Assembly (NCBI RefSeq): GCF_004135625.1
Contig: NZ_SDPV01000002.1
Span: 1,178,001-1,242,000 of the forward strand
Source of the DNA: Pelagerythrobacter rhizovicinus
GTDB taxonomy: Bacteria; Pseudomonadota; Alphaproteobacteria; Sphingomonadales; Sphingomonadaceae
Length of the DNA: 64,000 bases
Reading direction: 5' to 3'
Numbering within the stretch: the stretch's first letter is position 1; every line of letters begins with the position of its first letter. This document shows, piece by piece, positions 16,805 to 38,251 of the stretch. The notes under the pieces are model-generated. The model was not told the origin of the DNA and searched no databases. It saw only the letters and a program-made list of their open reading frames with translations. The translations under genes and the position numbers were made by a program.

Positions 16805-17890
16805 TTACATGCCCGAACCCGGACCGTAGGTGATTTCCACCCGACGGTTCTGGAGCTCGCGCACGCCGTCCGCGGTCGGAACGCGCGGCTGCGATTCGCC
16901 GAACGCCTCGCTCGAGATCCGCGTATCGGGGATGCCCCGACCGGTGAGATACGAGCGAACCGAGGCGTTGCGGCGCTCGGCCAGACCCATGTTGTAGGCC
17001 TGCGTACCCGAACGGTCGGTGTGACCGGCAAGCATGACCGAAGCCGAACCGCAATCCGCATAGGCCGAAACCGCGTTGTCGAGAATGGTCGCAGCCTCGG
17101 GCGTGATGTCCGACTTGTCCCATTCGAAGAACACGATGTACGGGCCCTGGTTGCACACCGGCGCAGGCGGCGGCGGGGGCGGCGGCGGCGGCGGCGGCGG
17201 CGGGGGCGGCGGCGGGGGCGGCGGGGGCGGCGGAGCCGCAGGTTCGCCACCGAAGTTGAACGTCAGCGTGCCCAGGATCGAGTGCGACCGGAAACGCGTG
17301 TCCGCCTGACCACCGGCCGCGTCGACCAGCGTAACGTCTTCCGCGTTGAAGAAGCGATAGCGCAGGCCGACGTCGATGTTGTCGGTCAGAGGCGCGCGGA
17401 CGCCGGCAAGAGCCTGCCACGCGAAGCCGGTGTCCGAATCGTCGATGACGTTCGGGCCGCCGATCGTGGCGTCGAGGCTGGTGCGCGCAACACCGGCACC
17501 GGCGCCGACGAAGCCCTGCAGACCATCATCTTCACCGAAGTCGACCAGTCCGTTCAACATGAACGCAAGAGCGCTGGCGTCACCGCCGGCGTCGAACTGA
17601 TCGCCCTCGGCCGTCAGCGTGCTGATCGGCGCAGAGCGATAGCTGGCATCGGCTTCGAGACGGAAGCCGCCGAAGTCGTAGCCGACCACGCCGCCAAAGT
17701 CGTAGCCCGTGTCCGTGTCGGCACCAGCGGTATCGATAACGTCGCCATCGGCGTCGACGATGTCGAAGTCGAAGTCTTCGACGATCATCGGGCCGCCTTG
17801 GCCTTCGATGTACCACTGGCCGTCACGTGCGAGGGCCGGCGATGCAAGGGCCGTAGAGGCCATCGCCAATCCAATGACGAGTTTCCGCAT
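16805..17890 (-). CDS. OmpA family outer-membrane protein with 23-residue polyproline linker
   Basis: A 361-residue outer-membrane protein. The signal peptide is MRKLVIGLAMASTALASPALA. An eight-strand beta-barrel domain (about 22-215) has alternating aromatic strands and two Asp-rich loops. An uninterrupted run of 23 prolines follows (codons 17165-17233, mostly CCG/CCC). Then comes the OmpA peptidoglycan-binding domain with FFEWDKSDIT, LAGHTDRSGTQAYNMGLAERR and the final NRRVEITYG. The C-terminal domain should anchor the barrel to peptidoglycan. A second in-frame start at 17992 lacks signal-peptide character. A GGGGAA sequence precedes ATG 17890. It is monocistronic, ending in a strong terminator. 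Confidence 0.93.
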   Translation of the reverse strand: MRKLVIGLAMASTALASPALARDGQWYIEGQGGPMIVEDFDFDIVDADGDVIDTAGADTDTGYDFGGVVGYDFGGFRLEADASYRSAPISTLTAEGDQFDAGGDASALAFMLNGLVDFGEDDGLQGFVGAGAGVARTSLDATIGGPNVIDDSDTGFAWQALAGVRAPLTDNIDVGLRYRFFNAEDVTLVDAAGGQADTRFRSHSILGTLTFNFGGEPAAPPPPPPPPPPPPPPPPPPPPPPPAPVCNQGPYIVFFEWDKSDITPEAATILDNAVSAYADCGSASVMLAGHTDRSGTQAYNMGLAERRNASVRSYLTGRGIPDTRISSEAFGESQPRVPTADGVRELQNRRVEITYGPGSGM

Positions 17891-24303: not shown

Positions 24304-24314
24304 CGTTTTTCTCC

Positions 24315-24565
24315 TCAGGCGCCGGCGGCCGCATCCGCGGCCTTGGCTATCCTCCGCGCAGAGCGCTCCGGGCGCGCAGTCGCGCTTTGGCTGCCGCGAC
24401 CAAGGTTTCCGATCCTCCCCATTTTGCGTCAGCCAAATGGGGAGGTGGCGCCCGCCGCAGGCGGGTGGCGGAGGGGCAATGGGGCGCGAAACCCCTCCAC
24501 CACGAGCCGCTTGCGCGTCTCGCGGTCCCCCTCCCCATTTGTGCTGGCGCAAAAATGGAGAGGAT
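24315..24565. repeat. Composite repeat B1 + family A copy 2
   Basis: 24315-24412 is module B (GGCGCCGGCGGCCGCATCC ... CTTTGGCTGCCGCGACCA). 24413-24565 is a family A element whose core is inverted relative to copy 1. The whole block is nearly identical to 27536-27783 and in the same orientation. It lies between g11 (stop 10 bp away) and g12. Confidence 0.9.
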
Positions 24566-24575
24566 CTTTGGGAGG

Positions 24576-25151
24576 CTACGGCAACAACGCCCTCCGCACC
24601 GCGCTCGCGACCTGACGGCTGGAGCGTTGCAGAGCGACCGGCGCATCGGCGCCGCGCTGTGGCGCAAGGTTGATCGACACGCGCACCTCGCGCGCCGGCG
24701 CGTTCGGAAGCGAGGGTTCGACCCGGCCCGCGGTGGTCGGCACGAACAGCTCGGGCCCGCGCTCGCCGACGAGATAGCCGCGCCCGGGCGAGACCGGGCC
24801 CCCGGTCGCACGTCCGGGCAGGCCGAACAGCGCTCCGACCAGCCCGCCGAACAAGCCGCCGAGGCCGCCGCCCTGCCGTCCGATCCCGCCGAACAGCTCG
24901 TCGAATCCCAACCGCAGCGATTGCGCCGCGATCTGGTCGATCGCGCTCAGCGCCACGCGCCGGAGATCGTCGAACCCGAGGGTCCCGCGGCGAATCGCCG
25001 ACAGCAGCCCGCGCTCGAGGATCGATCCCGCCTCGCGGAACCGCGCGACCAGTGTCGAATCGAGCGCGCCCCGCATTTCCGCGATGTCGGCGGCGAAGCC
25101 CTGCGTGCCCGCGCGCACTTCGATCAGCATTTCGTCCAGGTCGTCATCCAT
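24576..25151 (-). CDS. GTA tape-measure protein, gp11-like
   Basis: A 191-residue, Gly-rich protein. The start MDDDLDEMLIEVRAGTQGFAADIAEMRGAL and the central LGFDELFGGIG...GGLGGLFGGLVGALFG tract are characteristic. Then GPVSPGRGYLVGERGPELFVP, the usual tape-measure C-terminal motif, is followed by a Ser/Arg-rich end. In the Rhodobacter GTA the short tape measure sets the roughly 50-nm tail, and this protein has a comparable length (a little over 200 residues there). Its start overlaps the end of g10.1 by 8 bp. A composite repeat begins 10 bp after its stop. Confidence 0.85.
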   Translation of the reverse strand: MDDDLDEMLIEVRAGTQGFAADIAEMRGALDSTLVARFREAGSILERGLLSAIRRGTLGFDDLRRVALSAIDQIAAQSLRLGFDELFGGIGRQGGGLGGLFGGLVGALFGLPGRATGGPVSPGRGYLVGERGPELFVPTTAGRVEPSLPNAPAREVRVSINLAPQRGADAPVALQRSSRQVASAVRRALLP

Positions 25152-25476
25152 TGGTTTCGCGCTCCAGCATGCGTTCGATCTCGGTCCGGGTCGGGACCGC
25201 GGGCTGGCCGGCAGGGTCGGCCAGGCTCGCCGCCAGCTCGGCCGGCGTCGCCCGCCAGAATTCCTCCGGCCGCCAGCCGAGTGCTTGCGCGGCTACGGCT
25301 GCGAGGGGGAGAGAGGCGGCGCCGAAACGTCCCCCCTCCCGCTTGCGGGAGGGGTCGGGGGTGGGCCCGATATCATTGAGCGCCTCGCCGAGGCCCACCC
25401 CGCTGCGACTAGTACTTGCTTCGCAAGCCCAAGTCTCGCGCCCCTCCCGCGGGCGGGAGGGGGATAGGTCGCCCAT
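25144..25476 (-). CDS. GTA tail assembly chaperone (g10.1-like) with repeat-derived segment
   Basis: A 110-residue product. The conserved part is residues ~50-110 (RFGAASLPLAAVAAQALGWR, then PEEFWRATPAELA), the phage tail assembly chaperone pattern seen at this place in GTA clusters. Residues ~6-49 are encoded by the family E repeat (25333-25463) read in frame, so the gene carries an insertion of about 44 codons between its first five codons and its core. ATG 25476 overlaps the g10 stop as TGATG, the coupling seen across the operon. No ATG, GTG or TTG lies between the repeat and the core; an in-frame GTG exists only inside the repeat. Whether the longer product is functional is unknown. Confidence 0.7.
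   Translation of the reverse strand: MGDLSPSRPREGRETWACEASTSRSGVGLGEALNDIGPTPDPSRKREGGRFGAASLPLAAVAAQALGWRPEEFWRATPAELAASLADPAGQPAVPTRTEIERMLERETNG
25333..25463. repeat. Repeat family E, copy 1 (inside g10.1)
   Basis: About 131 bp bounded by CCCCTCCCGC hairpins: CCCTCCCGCTTGCGGGAGGG on the left and CCCTCCCGCGGGCGGGAGGG on the right. The interior has GTCGGGGGTGGGCC, GGCCCACCCCGCTGCGACTA and AAGTCTCGCGCC. The second copy is at 26265-26395. This copy is read in frame in the tail assembly chaperone gene. Confidence 0.9.
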
Positions 25477-25826
25477 CAGCCGGAACCCTGGAGAATCTGG
25501 CCGAGCAGTGTGCGTAGCGGCTTGGCGCATGCGGCGAGGCCCTGTGCCGTCACCGCCTCGCCCACTTGCTCGCGCGTCAGCTCGCCGCGATCGGCGAGGC
25601 AGTGCCAGAACAGCGCGGCCATCTCGGACAGCGCCAGCCGCCCTTCGCCCGCCCGCTCGACCAGCGCTAACAGCGGCCCGAGCTCCTCCTCGGCCGCGAC
25701 CAGCGCCGAGAAGCTCGGTCGCAGCACGCGCGCGCTTCCGGCAATGACCAGTGCCGCTTCGCCGCGATGCGGATTGGCTGGAATCCTTGTCGCGCTACCG
25801 CCTTCGGCTACTTGAGCGGGGGTCAT
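25476..25826 (-). CDS. Gene transfer agent family protein, gp10-like
   Basis: A 116-residue protein. After a variable N-terminus (MTPAQVAEGGSATRIPANPH) it has the conserved RGEAALVIAGSARVLRPSF, then a SALVAAEEELG stretch and LALSEMAALFWHCLAD, the pattern of the GTA gp10 family found between the major tail protein and the tail chaperone. It is probably a tail assembly chaperone partner (inference). ATG 25826 overlaps the major tail gene stop (ATGA), and the stop TGA overlaps the next ATG. Confidence 0.82.
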   Translation of the reverse strand: MTPAQVAEGGSATRIPANPHRGEAALVIAGSARVLRPSFSALVAAEEELGPLLALVERAGEGRLALSEMAALFWHCLADRGELTREQVGEAVTAQGLAACAKPLRTLLGQILQGSG

Positions 25827-26230
25827 GCCGGCACCACCGCGCCCGAGCTTTCGAGTTGCAGCGTATAGGTCCGCTCGCCGTTGAAATCGCCGGCGTAGTC
25901 GAGCCGCTGGACGAGGAACCGGCCGCGCAACCGCTCGCCATCCTCGAACGAGAGCTCGTAATCGTCGATCGTCCCCGCCAGTGCATGGGCGCGGACCGCG
26001 GCTTCGGCCTCGCTGGCGAGAAAGATCCCGCCCGCCGAAACCGACACCGACCGCGTCCCCGCACCCGACAGCAGCTCGCGCCAGCCGCCGCTTTCCTTGT
26101 GCGTGACGACCACGGTATCGCCGTTGATCGACATCTGCGTGGTCCGGAGGCCGGCGACGGTGGCGTAGGCGGGCGGCTGGGCGCCGTCGCCGATCTTGAG
26201 AAGGAAGGCGGAGCCTTTCTGGGCTGTCAT
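25823..26230 (-). CDS. GTA major tail protein, gp9-like
   Basis: A 135-residue tail-tube subunit: MTAQKGSAFLLKIGD, VAGLRTTQMSINGDTVVVT, ESGGWRELLSGAGTRSVSVSAGG, a segment with YELSFEDGERLRG, and DYAGDFNGERTYTLQLESSG. This is the phage major tail protein TIGR02126-type pattern. The subunits should stack as hexamers along the tape measure. The start is ATG 26230; an upstream in-frame codon at 26257 lies beside the repeat. Between it and g8 is repeat E copy 2. Confidence 0.9.
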   Translation of the reverse strand: MTAQKGSAFLLKIGDGAQPPAYATVAGLRTTQMSINGDTVVVTHKESGGWRELLSGAGTRSVSVSAGGIFLASEAEAAVRAHALAGTIDDYELSFEDGERLRGRFLVQRLDYAGDFNGERTYTLQLESSGAVVPA

Positions 26231-26264
26231 GGGTGATCTCCAAAAATGTGAACGCAACAGAATC

Positions 26265-26395
26265 CCCCCTCCCGCTTGCGGGAGGGGTCGGGGGTGGGCC
26301 TGTGGTCATTCGGCGGTCCGGCAGCGCCCACCCCGCTGCGACTAAGCGTCGCTTCGCGCCGCCAAGTCTCGCGCCCCTCCCGCTCGCGGGAGGGG
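26265..26395. repeat. Repeat family E, copy 2 (between g9 and g8)
   Basis: The same layout as 25333-25463: CCCTCCCGCTTGCGGGAGGG, GTCGGGGGTGGGCC, a divergent centre, CCCACCCCGCTGCGACTAAG and CCCTCCCGCTCGCGGGAGGG. It fills the g9-g8 gap and ends 2 bp before the g8 stop. Confidence 0.9.
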
Positions 26396-26397
26396 TG

Positions 26398-26790
26398 TTA
26401 GGTCGCCGCCAAGCACCTGAACCGGTATTCCAGCAGCACGCTGCGGCGGTTGTTGGCGCGGCGCTCGGCGCGGGCGCGCAGGAAGAGGATCGAGACGACC
26501 GTGAACCCCGGCTGCTCCCGCGGCAGGGCCTCGATCCGGCGTTCGATCGCGCGGACCAGCGCGCCGTCCGCCGCCGGATCGTCGCCGCGCGTGTGCAGTT
26601 CGAGCGCCACGCGAATCTCGCGGCCGGTGCGGTCCTTGGTGCTCCAGTCGGCGCTCGCGCTCGCGGCGATGCCGAGCCAGGGCGGACTGGCGCGCAGCGG
26701 CGCTTCCTCCTCCACCGCATTGAGCGTGTCGAGCGAGGCGGGGCCGCCGCGCAGCCAGGCGATCAGCGCGGCGCGCAAGGCATGTTCCAT
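26398..26790 (-). CDS. GTA tail terminator-like protein (DUF3168), gp8-like
   Basis: A 130-residue protein: MEHALRAALIAWLRG, PPWLGIAASASADWSTKDR, TGREIRVALELHTRGDDP and a terminal NNRRSVLLEYRFRCLAAT. This is the DUF3168 pattern. In phages and the Rhodobacter GTA it occupies the tail-terminator position between connector and tube. It starts 3 bp after the short gene upstream (26794). The repeat begins immediately after its stop. Confidence 0.85.
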   Translation of the reverse strand: MEHALRAALIAWLRGGPASLDTLNAVEEEAPLRASPPWLGIAASASADWSTKDRTGREIRVALELHTRGDDPAADGALVRAIERRIEALPREQPGFTVVSILFLRARAERRANNRRSVLLEYRFRCLAAT

Positions 26791-26793
26791 CGG

Positions 26794-26964
26794 TCAGTCC
26801 TCCGCGAAAGCGGGCCAGAGCAGCCGCGCGCTGCGCCAGCGGGCCGGGTCGCCCCGGCGGGCGCGGACGGCGTTCTCCGCGCGCGCCTGCGCGATCCGCG
26901 CCGCCTTGTGCGCGAGCCGCGCGGCGAGGGCGGCAAGCGGCGGGCGAGCTTCGGCCTCGATCAT
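26794..26964 (-). CDS. Short basic protein at the GTA g7 position
   Basis: A 56-residue Ala/Arg-rich helical protein (MIEAEARPPLAALAARLAHK ... RSARLLWPAFAED). ATG 26964 overlaps the g6 stop (ATGA), and the gene ends 3 bp before g8, so coupling and position argue that it is real. Rhodobacter g7 encodes a head-tail stopper roughly twice as long; I cannot show homology, and this may be a reduced or replaced version. It is too short and biased for a confident family call. Confidence 0.55.
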   Translation of the reverse strand: MIEAEARPPLAALAARLAHKAARIAQARAENAVRARRGDPARWRSARLLWPAFAED

Positions 26965-27506
26965 GTCAGCCGCATCCGGCGCCACGGACGCCAAAGCGCG
27001 GTCACGGCCGAGGGCAAGGCCGCCGCCGCGCCCTCGTCGCGCGCGCGGTAGAGCTCGGCCGCGAGACGGACGATCCCGTGCCGCAAGCCGCCCGGCAGCG
27101 CGTCCCACTCAGGCACAAGGCCCGCGGCGAAGCGCACCGCGATCCGCCCCTCCGCGCCCTGCCGCAGCAGGCGCACCCGCCCGGTCCCGTCGGCGTCGAG
27201 TTCGACTTCGTAGGCACCCGCCGCCAGCGCAAAGCGCGGACCTTCGGCCGGAATGCCCTCGATGCCGACGATCGCCTGCACCGGTCGCGTCGCGAGCGCC
27301 TGCCACTCGCGGCATGCGGGAAGCACTTCCTCGCAGGTCGCTTCCAGCGGCACGGCCCCGGTGAAAGCCTCGCACGCCTCGGCACTCGCGCCCAGCAGCG
27401 CGGTGAGCGAGGCATCCTCGGCCGCAGTGGTGATCGCCAGCCATCGCTTGCAATCCGCCAGCGCGGCGCCCGCCAGATCGGGCGGCGTCAATACGGTCCG
27501 CTTCAT
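26961..27506 (-). CDS. GTA head-tail connector (adaptor), gp6-like
   Basis: A 181-residue connector protein. MKRTVLTPPDLAGAALADCK, then LLGASAEACEAFTGAV, and a C-terminal WDALPGGLRHGIVRLAAELY with YRARDEG agree with the phage gp6-like head-tail connector family. It should sit below the portal ring. ATG 27506 has AGGGGGAG upstream; the open frame continues far upstream through the repeat and antisense to the capsid gene and was discarded. ATGA couples it to the short gene downstream. Confidence 0.85.
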   Translation of the reverse strand: MKRTVLTPPDLAGAALADCKRWLAITTAAEDASLTALLGASAEACEAFTGAVPLEATCEEVLPACREWQALATRPVQAIVGIEGIPAEGPRFALAAGAYEVELDADGTGRVRLLRQGAEGRIAVRFAAGLVPEWDALPGGLRHGIVRLAAELYRARDEGAAAALPSAVTALWRPWRRMRLT

Positions 27507-27535
27507 CGCGAACTCCCCCTTTTTTTGTTTGAGCC

Positions 27536-27783
27536 TCAGGCGCCGGCGGCCGCATCCGCGGCCTTGGCTATCCTCCGCGCAAAGCGCTCCGGGCGCGCAG
27601 TCGCGCTTTGGCTGCCGCGACCAGGTTTCCATTCCTCCCCATCGACTTGCGATGGGGAGGTGGCGCCCGCCGCAGGCGGGTGACGGAGGGGCCTGCGCCG
27701 GGCAGGGCGGCCCCTCCACCACGAGCCGCTTGCGCGTCTCGCGGTCCCCCTCCCCATTTGCGCTGCGCGAAAATGGGGAGGAT
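27536..27783. repeat. Composite repeat B2 + family A copy 3
   Basis: Module B (27536-27632) plus an inverted-core family A element (27633-27783), in the same order and orientation as 24315-24565. It fills the gap between the capsid gene stop (10 bp away) and g6. Confidence 0.9.
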
Positions 27784-27793
27784 CTTCTCCCGC

Positions 27794-28933: not shown

Positions 28934-28974
28934 AAGGCAACCTTTCTTCAGAGTGGTGGTGGTGATGAGGCAGA

Positions 28975-29115
28975 TCCTCCCCATCGACTTGCGATGGGGA
29001 GGTGGTGCCCGCCGCAGGCGGGTGACGGAGGGGGACTGGAGCACAAGGCCCCTCCACCACGAGCCGCTTGCGCGTCTCGCGGTCCCCCTCCCCATCGCGA
29101 GACGATGGGGAGGAC
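28975..29115. repeat. Repeat family A, copy 4
   Basis: Tips are CCCCATCGACTTGCGATGGGG on the left and CCCCATCGCGAGACGATGGGG on the right. The core is inverted relative to copy 1. It lies between g5 and g4, 22 bp from repeat C1. Confidence 0.9.
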
Positions 29116-29137
29116 TGGGTAGAGTTTGAAAACGATG

Positions 29138-29219
29138 TGCGAGCCCCAGCGCAGGCTGGGGCCTCCGACCGCTGGCGCTTCGCCGGATAGCCCGAGGTCC
29201 CAGCCTTCGCTGGGACTCA
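29138..29219. repeat. Repeat family C, copy 1
   Basis: Hairpin GAGCCCCAGCGCAGGCTGGGGCCTC, middle GCTGGCGCTTCGCC, and terminal hairpin GTCCCAGCCTTCGCTGGGAC, then TCA. The final TCA is the stop codon (TGA) of g4 on the minus strand, so the repeat abuts or supplies the end of that gene. Confidence 0.85.
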
Positions 29220-29624
29220 GGCCGCGATCAGATGCACCCGCGCCCGGTGCTGGAGGGGATGCGTGACGAGGCTCACCTCGAACAGCTCGACGTCCTCCAG
29301 CACGCGGCCTTCGGGTTCGTGGCGGAAGGCCCGCGCGCGGTAGCCGAAGCTGAGGCCGCTCACCGCGCGGCGGCGGAGCATGGCGGCGGCGCGGCCGTCC
29401 GGGTTGTCGAGCGCGGCGATCACGCGCAGGCCGCGCGGGTCCTCCGCGATCCGCTCGACCCAGCCGATCCGCTGCTCGGGCCGGTGCTGCCAGTAGAGCG
29501 GCAGCGGCCCGAGCGATGCGGCCCGGCGCTCGGCAAGCGTGCGGGCGAAGGCGCCGGGCCGGATCGTGTCGCGGCTGGCGTCGGCGCGGTCGAACAGCGC
29601 CGCGTAGCCGGCCAGGCGCGTCAT
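29217..29624 (-). CDS. GTA prohead protease (HK97 family), gp4-like
   Basis: A 135-residue HK97 prohead protease: MTRLAGYAALFDRADASRD, TIRPGAFARTL, PLYWQHRPEQRIGW (His of the catalytic set), AVSGLSFGYRARA (Ser), and LFEVSLVTHPLQHRA (second His/Glu region). It trims the capsid scaffold segment. ATG 29624 overlaps the g3.5 stop (ATGA). The TGA stop coincides with the edge of repeat C1. Confidence 0.9.
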   Translation of the reverse strand: MTRLAGYAALFDRADASRDTIRPGAFARTLAERRAASLGPLPLYWQHRPEQRIGWVERIAEDPRGLRVIAALDNPDGRAAAMLRRRAVSGLSFGYRARAFRHEPEGRVLEDVELFEVSLVTHPLQHRARVHLIAA

Positions 29625-29929: not shown

Positions 29930-29958
29930 GTGATTGGTGTCCTTGTCTCTATCTTCAG

Positions 29959-30099
29959 TCCTCCCCATCGTCTTGCGATGGGGAGGGGGACCGCGAGACG
30001 CGAAGCGGCTCGTGGTGGAGGGGCCTTGCGCACCAGTGCCCCTCCGTCACCCGCCTCCGGCGGGCGCCACCTCCCCATCGCAAGACGATGGGGGAGGAC
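29959..30099. repeat. Repeat family A, copy 5
   Basis: Tips are CCCCATCGTCTTGCGATGGGG and CCCCATCGCAAGACGATGGGG. The core is in the same direction as copy 1. It lies between g3.5 and g3, ending 8 bp from the g3 stop. Confidence 0.9.
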
Positions 30100-30107
30100 C
30101 TTTCTCG

Positions 30108-31244: not shown

Positions 31245-31258
31245 TGGATTGCTCCTGT

Positions 31259-31340
31259 GTGCGAGCCCCTGCGCAGGCAGGGGCCTCAGGCTGTCGGGCA
31301 GAGCGCCGGCGGCCTGAGGTCCCAGCCTCCGCTGGGACTC
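31259..31340. repeat. Repeat family C, copy 2
   Basis: GCGAGCCCCTGCGCAGGCAGGGGCCTC, a GGCAGAGCGCCGGCGGCCTGAG middle and GTCCCAGCCTCCGCTGGGAC. It lies between g3 and family A copy 6 (22 bp apart). Confidence 0.85.
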
Positions 31341-31362
31341 GGTGATGGACGAACATCGAAAA

Positions 31363-31502
31363 TCCTCCCCATCGACTTGCGATGGGGAGGGGGACCGCGA
31401 GACGCGAAGCGGCTCGTGGTGGAGGGGCTCTGCGCTCCAGTTCCCCTCCGTCACCCGCCTGCGGCGGGCGCCACCTCCCCATCGCAAGTCGATGGGGAGG
31501 AC
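31363..31502. repeat. Repeat family A, copy 6
   Basis: The same direction as copies 1 and 5, with CGACTTGCG/CGCAAGTCG tips. It lies between g2 (stop 22 bp away) and repeat C2, so the 280-bp g2-g3 gap is almost wholly repeat. Confidence 0.9.
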
Positions 31503-31524
31503 TGAAAAACACACGTGCAAAGTT

Positions 31525-33462: not shown

Positions 33463-33519
33463 GAGAAAAGTGCCAAAGAGGTTATTTGTTTAGAAGTCCC
33501 AACATTCCCCTCCTCCCCG

Positions 33520-33596
33520 ATCCCCTGCGAAGGCAGGGGCCTCAGGCTATCGGGCGAAGCGCCAGCGGCCTGAGGTCCCAGTCTCCGCTGGGACTC
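33520..33596. repeat. Repeat family C, copy 3
   Basis: CCCCTGCGAAGGCAGGGGCCTC, GGGCGAAGCGCCAGCGGCCTGAG and GTCCCAGTCTCCGCTGGGAC. It lies 11 bp from family A copy 7. With that copy and the possible GTA promoter it accounts for the gene-free stretch 33353-33820. Confidence 0.85.
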
Positions 33597-33607
33597 GCAG
33601 TTCCCAA

Positions 33608-33748
33608 TCCTCCCCATCGTCTTGCGATGGGGAGGGGAACCGCGAGACGCGTAGCGGCTCGTGGTGGAGGGGCCCTCGCGCGCCAGTGCCCCTCCGTCAG
33701 ACGCCTTCGGCGCCTGCCACCTCCCCATCGCAAGTCGATGGGGAGGAT
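33608..33748. repeat. Repeat family A, copy 7
   Basis: Tips CGTCTTGCG and CGCAAGTCG, with an internal AGACGCC/GGCGCCT hairpin like copies 1 and 8. It lies upstream of the GTA operon and of the divergent YqaA-like gene. Confidence 0.9.
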
Positions 33749-33820
33749 CACGATGGGGGAGGTTTCATAGATGCACGCGACTCGCTTGCGCCCCCCGACC
33801 CGCTCGCATAGGGCGCGGCG

Positions 33821-37628: not shown

Positions 37629-37743
37629 AGGGGGTGGTTTCCAATCTCATGTGCGGCGGGCGCTACGCCTGCCATGTCAATGCGGCGGAAAAGCGGTTCG
37701 CGCCCCGGTTTGTCAAGCGCGGCGGGCGTGAAGCCTGCGCCGG

Positions 37744-37773
37744 TCCTCCCCATCGCAAGACGATGGGAAGGAC
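37744..37773. repeat. Solo palindromic tip of repeat family A
   Basis: TCCTCCCCATCGCAAGACGATGGGAAGGAC: just the end hairpin of family A, without the core. Repeat C4 follows 5 bp later. It shows that the end module can exist on its own. Confidence 0.75.
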
Positions 37774-37778
37774 AAAAT

Positions 37779-37861
37779 GCGCGAGCCCCTGCGAAGGCAG
37801 GGGCCTCAGGCCGCTGGCGCTTCGCCCGTTAGCCTGAGGTCCCCGCCTTCGCGGGGACTCA
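37779..37861. repeat. Repeat family C, copy 4
   Basis: GCGAGCCCCTGCGAAGGCAGGGGCCTC, a GCTGGCGCTTCGCCCGTTAGCC middle and GTCCCCGCCTTCGCGGGGAC, then TCA. As at 29217-29219, the last TCA is the stop codon of the minus-strand gene beside it, here divK. Confidence 0.85.
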
Positions 37862-38251
37862 CGCGGCGGGCACCAGCCGCCGGACCGCCGCCATGAACGG
37901 CCCGATCGAGACCGGCTTCGCCAGATAGTCGGCCGCGCCGGCATCGCGAATCCGGTCCTCGTCCCCCTTGCCGGCATAGGCGGTCACGGCCAGCACCGGC
38001 ACGTCGGCCAGCCCCCGCTCGCGCTTGAGCGCGGCGATCAGGTCGACGCCGGAGACGTTGGGGAGCTGAATGTCCATCAGCACCAGATCGGGCGCGAAGG
38101 CCCGCGCGGCGTCGAGCACAAACTCGCCGTCGGCGACCGGCTCGACTTCGAAACCGTTCGCCCGCAGGACGTCGCAGAACAGCTTCCGGTTGAGGTCGTT
38201 GTCCTCGACAACCAGCACTCTCTTTGCCACAGGCTCGCTCACGTCGGGCAT
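37859..38251 (-). CDS. divK: Single-domain response regulator DivK
   Basis: A 130-residue receiver domain (ATG 38251, MPDVSEPVAKR). The acidic pocket is VVEDNDLNRKLF near residue 16, the phosphoacceptor Asp is in PDLVLMDIQLPNVSG near 59, and the Lys is in YLAKPVSIGPF near 110. The LNRKLF start and single domain match DivK, the cell-fate regulator that with DivJ and PleC controls CtrA through DivL and CckA. The ctrA gene is also in the window (60398-61093). The stop codon coincides with the edge of repeat C4. An ATG at 38299 upstream lies across the start region of the divergent gene. Confidence 0.85.
   Translation of the reverse strand: MPDVSEPVAKRVLVVEDNDLNRKLFCDVLRANGFEVEPVADGEFVLDAARAFAPDLVLMDIQLPNVSGVDLIAALKRERGLADVPVLAVTAYAGKGDEDRIRDAGAADYLAKPVSIGPFMAAVRRLVPAA

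Follow-up and report, generated by a model that had tools for sequence, protein, structure and literature searches.

How does a palindromic repeat with copies between genes come to lie in frame in the gene of a conserved protein? The question is raised by a g10.1-type tail assembly chaperone gene of Pelagerythrobacter rhizovicinus, encoded on the minus strand of a 64,000-nt window (the whole stretch of DNA that was analysed). The 110-codon frame (25144-25476) runs from ATG 25476 to TGA 25144-25146 and, as the original prediction held, the start overlaps the stop of the upstream g10 gene (25476-25826, minus strand; Phage_TAC_11, PF11836, E 2e-23, start taken from sequence) in the motif TGATG (25478-25474). 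The ATG and first codons (25464-25476) are followed by a 134-nt palindromic repeat (25330-25463) and then by the conserved core (25147-25326, FGAASLPLA...ERETNG), for which four helices are predicted. The observation of an in-frame repeat in g10.1 is confirmed, although its extent is codons 5-49 rather than codons 6-49, for which a span including the first codons had been given (25333-25476). No stop or frame change interrupts the 150 nt from ATG to core, and the conserved chaperone core resumes after the repeat, both as had been claimed; the PF09550 match covers only residues 58-106 (E 1.9e-11; 44.6 bits, cut-off 23.4). The earlier interpretation, that the repeat may have supplied a new peptide segment, is supported by the comparisons that follow.

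The gene can be assigned to the GTA g10.1 chaperones by its Phage_TAC_6 core (PF09550) behind g10 and by its neighbours in a GTA-type cluster; the NCBIfam model TIGR02216 scores it below cut-off (25.8 against 56.1). Pfam matches were obtained for 12 of the 14 cluster proteins tested, including terminase, portal, capsid, tail completion, tail tube, baseplate hub and tail proteins, with no match for the g11-type protein or for 26964-27506. Around g10.1, terminase, portal, capsid and several tail genes keep intact frames. Its predicted gene content marks the cluster as a structural one, GTA-type or phage-like; judged by gene order and family names it is presumably a GTA rather than a prophage. 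Within the cluster and around it, many spacers contain palindromic repeats that belong to other families (24313-24566, 27534-27785, 28967-29226, 29951-30100, 31257-31508, 33516-33750 and 37736-37868), and a low-complexity CGGCGG array lies at 17159-17245, away from the g10.1 locus.

The second copy of the repeat that had been predicted between genes was found at 26263-26395 on the minus strand (originally 26265-26395), between the tail tube gene (25823-26230) and a gp17-like gene (26398-26790). It is 82% identical to the g10.1 copy and lies 1 nt past the upstream stop. The same genome has 36 matches to a 146-nt query at E <= 1e-3, and many of these cover just one arm of the element. Six of the seven genomes of the genus (G000 to G006) carry the repeat at E <= 1e-9 and the seventh, G004, at 8.6e-9, while a family-level scan found it in at least 44 of 119 genomes at E <= 1e-8, a lower bound because at most seven candidates were scored per genome. 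The fetched loci yielded 28 distinct full-length copies, 116-136 nt long, and 27 of them (all except L041) were aligned for a consensus fold. These share a 20-bp outer stem, formed from both terminal units, and two inner hairpins; the repeat has two similar terminal hairpin units that are able also to pair mutually around the inner hairpins. The 20 outer pairs join the two ends, as the terminal inverted repeats of a MITE would, and the length and long stem-loop are those of Rickettsia palindromic elements (RPEs), at about 100-150 bp. Two-sided changes occur at 8 of the 40 predicted pairs, all within one inner stem. For the window copy the fold energy is -92.4 kcal/mol (z -6.3), a level that none of 200 shuffles reached, and with its flanks (221 nt) the fold excess is weaker (z -1.9). 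Given the 36 matches within the genome and the fold z of -6.3, the identification of the g10.1 segment as a repeat exceeds chance. A known RNA family was rejected, as cmscan of 24400-26900 returned only two sub-threshold matches, both outside the repeat. A mobilising REP transposase (REPIN/RAYT) was likewise rejected for this genome, in which the Y1-type domain PF01797 was not found; that domain is present in one of the seven genus genomes (G001).

In 26 of the 28 distinct full-length copies, the stop codon of a gene is found 1-18 nt from one edge of the repeat, with the repeat in either orientation. Merging similar flanks leaves 14 groups, or 15 sites when the two GTA copies are kept separate, and 14 of these 15 sites are post-stop. 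By the identical rule, 691 of 5388 non-coding, non-repeat points in the window (12.8%) lie within 18 nt of a stop (binomial for 14 of 15 sites, 4e-12), with genes called throughout by a simple custom codon-usage score. The exception (L005/L040) is a copy within an open frame lacking a Pfam match. Placement near the 3´ ends of ORFs is a mark of the CGTC/GTAG REP superfamilies, and a comparable preference of REPs, those of S. wittichii among them, is described in the part of PMC3733652 available to us. The g10.1 copy falls within the ordinary range of the family, 10-13 nt past the g10 stop in the window, G006 and G003; in the window the stop is 10 nt ahead of the query edge (25465) and 12 nt ahead of the repeat edge (25463). 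This copy is inside g10.1 only because g10.1 begins at the g10 stop. A post-stop niche that overlaps the start of the next gene would therefore explain the in-frame insertion.

Within the genus, the g10.1 core is present in four of the seven genomes (the present one counted), and all four carry the repeat or a remnant of it at the identical site, in frame. The distance from ATG to core is 150 nt in the window, 153 nt in G006, 210 nt in G003 and 45 nt in G002, and the stop-start junction is kept in all four species, as TGATG or, with the start immediately after the stop in G006, G003 and G002, as TAGATG. The G002 length is that of G006 minus 108 nt, and in each of the six GTA-cluster copies that were measured, the sister copy included, the two GCGGGAGGGG units likewise stand 108 nt apart. 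On these lengths the 45-nt form equals a putative hairpin-to-hairpin deletion of 108 nt from the 153-nt form, and the collapse matches slippage or recombination between the terminal units. Unit spacing is a multiple of three in just 11 of the 22 copies having both units intact, so keeping the frame on collapse is not a feature of these repeats in general. Between repeat and core, G003 shows a 57-nt in-frame gain (L095, 5407-5469); another repeat was rejected as its source, there being no second copy in the G003 genome. The spacer before the tail tube gene in G003 (L095) holds a different palindrome-like sequence, and that of the window, G006 and G002 holds the repeat described here.

Outside the genus, no insert was seen, by alignment or by eye, in 32 distinct g10.1 loci with a readable N-terminus (11 loci and 22 of 24 from two sets that share one genome, G014). 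Each of the 22 has a start codon 17-31 codons ahead of an invariant LGW motif, against 65 codons for the window ATG. The two unparsed loci are L157 and L159, and the weak matches L022 and L023 stayed outside the alignment. In L159 (G183), g10 and g10.1 appear to be fused into a single frame that lacks the g10 end and the g10.1 start. Core matches occur in 148 of 249 genomes, 30 of which had fetched loci and were inspected. The comparison of homologues that the original prediction proposed has thus gone in its favour, and the finding that would have counted against it, the same N-terminal segment in genomes that lack the repeat, did not appear.

The conserved junction suggests that translation begins at ATG 25476, and other codons could serve as starts. 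A GTG lies in frame inside the repeat, at codon 27 (25396-25398) and at the same codon in G006 and G003; it had gone unmentioned when the original prediction stated, correctly for this genome, that no canonical start separates repeat and core. A TTG is found just past the repeat at codon 50 in G006 and G003 and at codon 14 in G002. The repeat might then be mostly untranslated leader, with translation beginning within or past it, perhaps with the purine-rich GGGAGGGG end as a putative ribosome-binding site. An argument of this kind is made for many N-terminal REPs in the part of PMC3733652 available to us, which cautions that they may be extragenic. We consider this reading unlikely here. ATG 1 and GTG 27 are the only in-frame ATG, GTG, TTG or CTG codons ahead of the window core, and either choice would put no fewer than 23 repeat codons (27-49) into the protein. 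Moreover, all four ATG-to-core lengths are in phase with the upstream ATG, and the TGATG/TAGATG junction has been preserved in four species. Since only one of the three forward frames in the window copy contains any stop, openness by itself tells little; the agreement in phase across three independent length changes, to which simple arithmetic gives a chance probability of about 1 in 27, provides moderate evidence for in-frame maintenance.

It is less likely still that the insert has been retained for a useful RNA structure, for example one that sets the g10 : g10.1 ratio or protects the mRNA, with translation incidental. The very stable fold fits such a role, as do the two-sided changes across the 27 copies, which are a property of a family whose copies are mostly non-coding. 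However, G002 has lost most of the insert and its core is still conserved, and the other genera examined manage without any insert. Against translation through the repeat, a structure of -92 kcal/mol from codon 5 onwards might be an obstacle to elongation.

Selection distinguishes the two parts of the gene. For the core, dN and dS in the six congener pairs are 0.106 and 0.639, 0.156 and 0.612, 0.081 and 0.388, 0.069 and 0.451, 0.109 and 0.668, and 0.155 and 0.529, giving ratios of 0.15-0.29 in all six; those of g9, g10 and g11 are 0.07-0.35 (g11 from three pairs, with G006 left out). Decay of the gene or of the whole cluster, with the insert lying in a pseudogene, has in its favour that three of the seven genus genomes give no g10.1 match, and is very improbable in view of these ratios and of the intact terminase, portal, capsid and tail gene frames. 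For the repeat segment (three pairs, 48 codons), dN is 0.128, 0.270 and 0.289 against dS of 0.070, 0.283 and 0.269, with differences scattered across codon positions. The g10.1 core is under purifying selection and the repeat-encoded part is not. The frame is conserved while the peptide it specifies drifts, and the sequence of that peptide has no sign of conservation.

An AlphaFold2 model built from 15 sequences (mean pLDDT 70.7, pTM 0.35) gives residues 1-50 no secondary structure (pLDDT 50-60) and the core four helices (block means 77-90). The extension, with eight positive and eight negative residues, is thus probably disordered and charge-balanced; for the disorder the model is weak evidence, because only four of the sequences reach into the extension.

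Taken together, we think it probable that the repeat was inserted past the g10 stop, is read in frame from ATG 25476 and is tolerated. In an ancestor of the genus, a presumably mobile palindromic repeat of 116-136 nt would have inserted at its usual place, a few nucleotides past the g10 stop, and would have ended up after the g10.1 ATG because g10.1 starts at that stop. The phase of insertion would have left the element open and joined to the core in frame. A ribosome coupled to g10 termination may then read the ATG and the repeat, yielding an N-terminal extension, probably disordered and charge-balanced, that the chaperone would tolerate. Later changes in length would have kept the phase: a loss of 108 nt in G002, a gain of 57 nt in G003 and a 3-nt difference between the window and G006. 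The four species, with a full insert twice, an insert plus a gain and a collapsed insert, against insert-free outgroups, form a series in which a repeat is taken into a coding frame and in which selection can be seen on the core but not on the insert. They also suggest a path by which an intergenic repeat enters a gene, through a post-stop niche that overlaps the start of a coupled gene.

Other conserved genes of the same genome carry the repeat in frame, a feature shared with RPEs: besides g10.1, short forms (the two terminal units in inverted order) are found inside UvrA and GlyS, and a composite form inside a Uup-like ABC-F protein. In alignments to relatives of solved structure, the inserts separate conserved blocks in UvrA (query 238 and 291 against 256 and 261 of 2r6f) and in GlyS (query 396 and 435 against 378 and 383 of 7yse), and the Uup-like insert follows the second ABC domain and precedes the C-terminal domain. 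Where the 7yse alignment has a gap, the GlyS of this genome (L061) appears to carry a further repeat-like segment, APAQAGASGEGEQPHEAPASAG, different from the first. Among the seven genus genomes, the UvrA loop has an insert in four (G000, G003, G005 and G006), each encoding a different peptide, and is short in three. GlyS has inserts in three (G000, G002 and G004) and none in four (G001 by contiguous match). The Uup-like linker contains this repeat in G000 and G005, apparently related sequence in G001 and G006 and Pro-rich sequence in the rest.

The survey of the family parsed 54 UvrA loops, of which 53 were folded. Values of z below -2 were obtained for 15 of 20 long loops (measured span of at least 86 residues) against 2 of 33 short ones, although z is length-dependent and the species are related; 11 of these 15 long loops come from 11 other genera. 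The sample is uneven: 55 genomes were matched, 26 with split matches, 20 of which were fetched for that reason (two of them unparsed), while G015, G016, G019 and G044 stayed outside the inspected set. Apparently, then, the same UvrA loop is filled in frame by different palindromes in many genera (L127-L132, L204-L220) and kept short in others, with the loops assigned to repeat families by eye from the peptides, the copy in the present genome excepted. If so, UvrA offers a natural experiment on how much sequence a conserved repair protein can accommodate. Rather more tentatively, and as a reading we doubt somewhat more than we favour, in-frame palindromic insertion could in this alphaproteobacterial family be a recurrent and partly site-specific route of protein change, in which unrelated repeat families repeatedly enter a shared set of permissive places (the UvrA loop after the interaction domain, the GlyS loop, the Uup linker and the g10/g10.1 junction) and add disordered, species-specific peptide modules.

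That repeats add stretches to proteins is a known route, seldom well documented, and an in-frame palindrome in a protein gene is an already known kind of event. E. litoralis and S. alaskensis, in which intragenic REPs also occur, belong, like the present host, to the Sphingomonadales. In the part of PMC3733652 available to us, intragenic REPs are reported for several species, including in tRNA synthetase genes of these two and in the uvrA genes of O. terrae and Thioalkalivibrio. The suggestion that alphaproteobacterial repeats may create new peptide segments therefore gains from the copies in UvrA, GlyS and the Uup-like protein, and loses its novelty. A literature search that took in few subscription journals, and PMC3733652 apart from its supplementary lists, turned up no paper that treats this repeat, repeats within GTA genes or, for the family, the UvrA loop; as far as we have seen, the repeat family, the g10.1 series, its explanation by a post-stop niche and the shared UvrA site are new.

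Three known systems invite comparison, each as described in the parts of the sources available to us. The RPEs (Ogata et al., 2000; PMC2229807; PMC10969869) are likewise palindromes of 100-150 bp, with intergenic copies, in-frame copies in conserved proteins and stem-loop transcripts, and the Rickettsia proteins that contain them include a guanylate kinase that has been put to test (PMC2229807). The host here is not Rickettsia, and we claim no kinship in sequence; the usual site of the present repeat is directly after stop codons. The enterobacterial RU-1/ERIC, RU-2 and RU-3 elements are also small and mobile, and have open frames that are joined in phase to genes (PMC2229807; PMC2759123), in other hosts and with other termini. 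The CGTC/GTAG REPs are strong in alphaproteobacteria and have copies within uvrA and tRNA synthetase genes; their units are 20-40 bp long and tagged CGTC (often TGTC or CCTC) or GTAG, those of CGTC type with 8-9 bp stems and mostly CCA tails (PMC3733652). Membership of this class gains no support from exact tags, none being conserved among the 27 aligned copies of our repeat (CGTC and GTAG in 2 copies each, with the variants TGTC and CCTC outside the count, and the reverse complements GACG in 8 and CTAC in 1). Length and stem differ as well: where the CGTC/GTAG REPs are short units, the repeat that lies in g10.1 is an element of 116-136 nt closed by a 20-bp outer stem.
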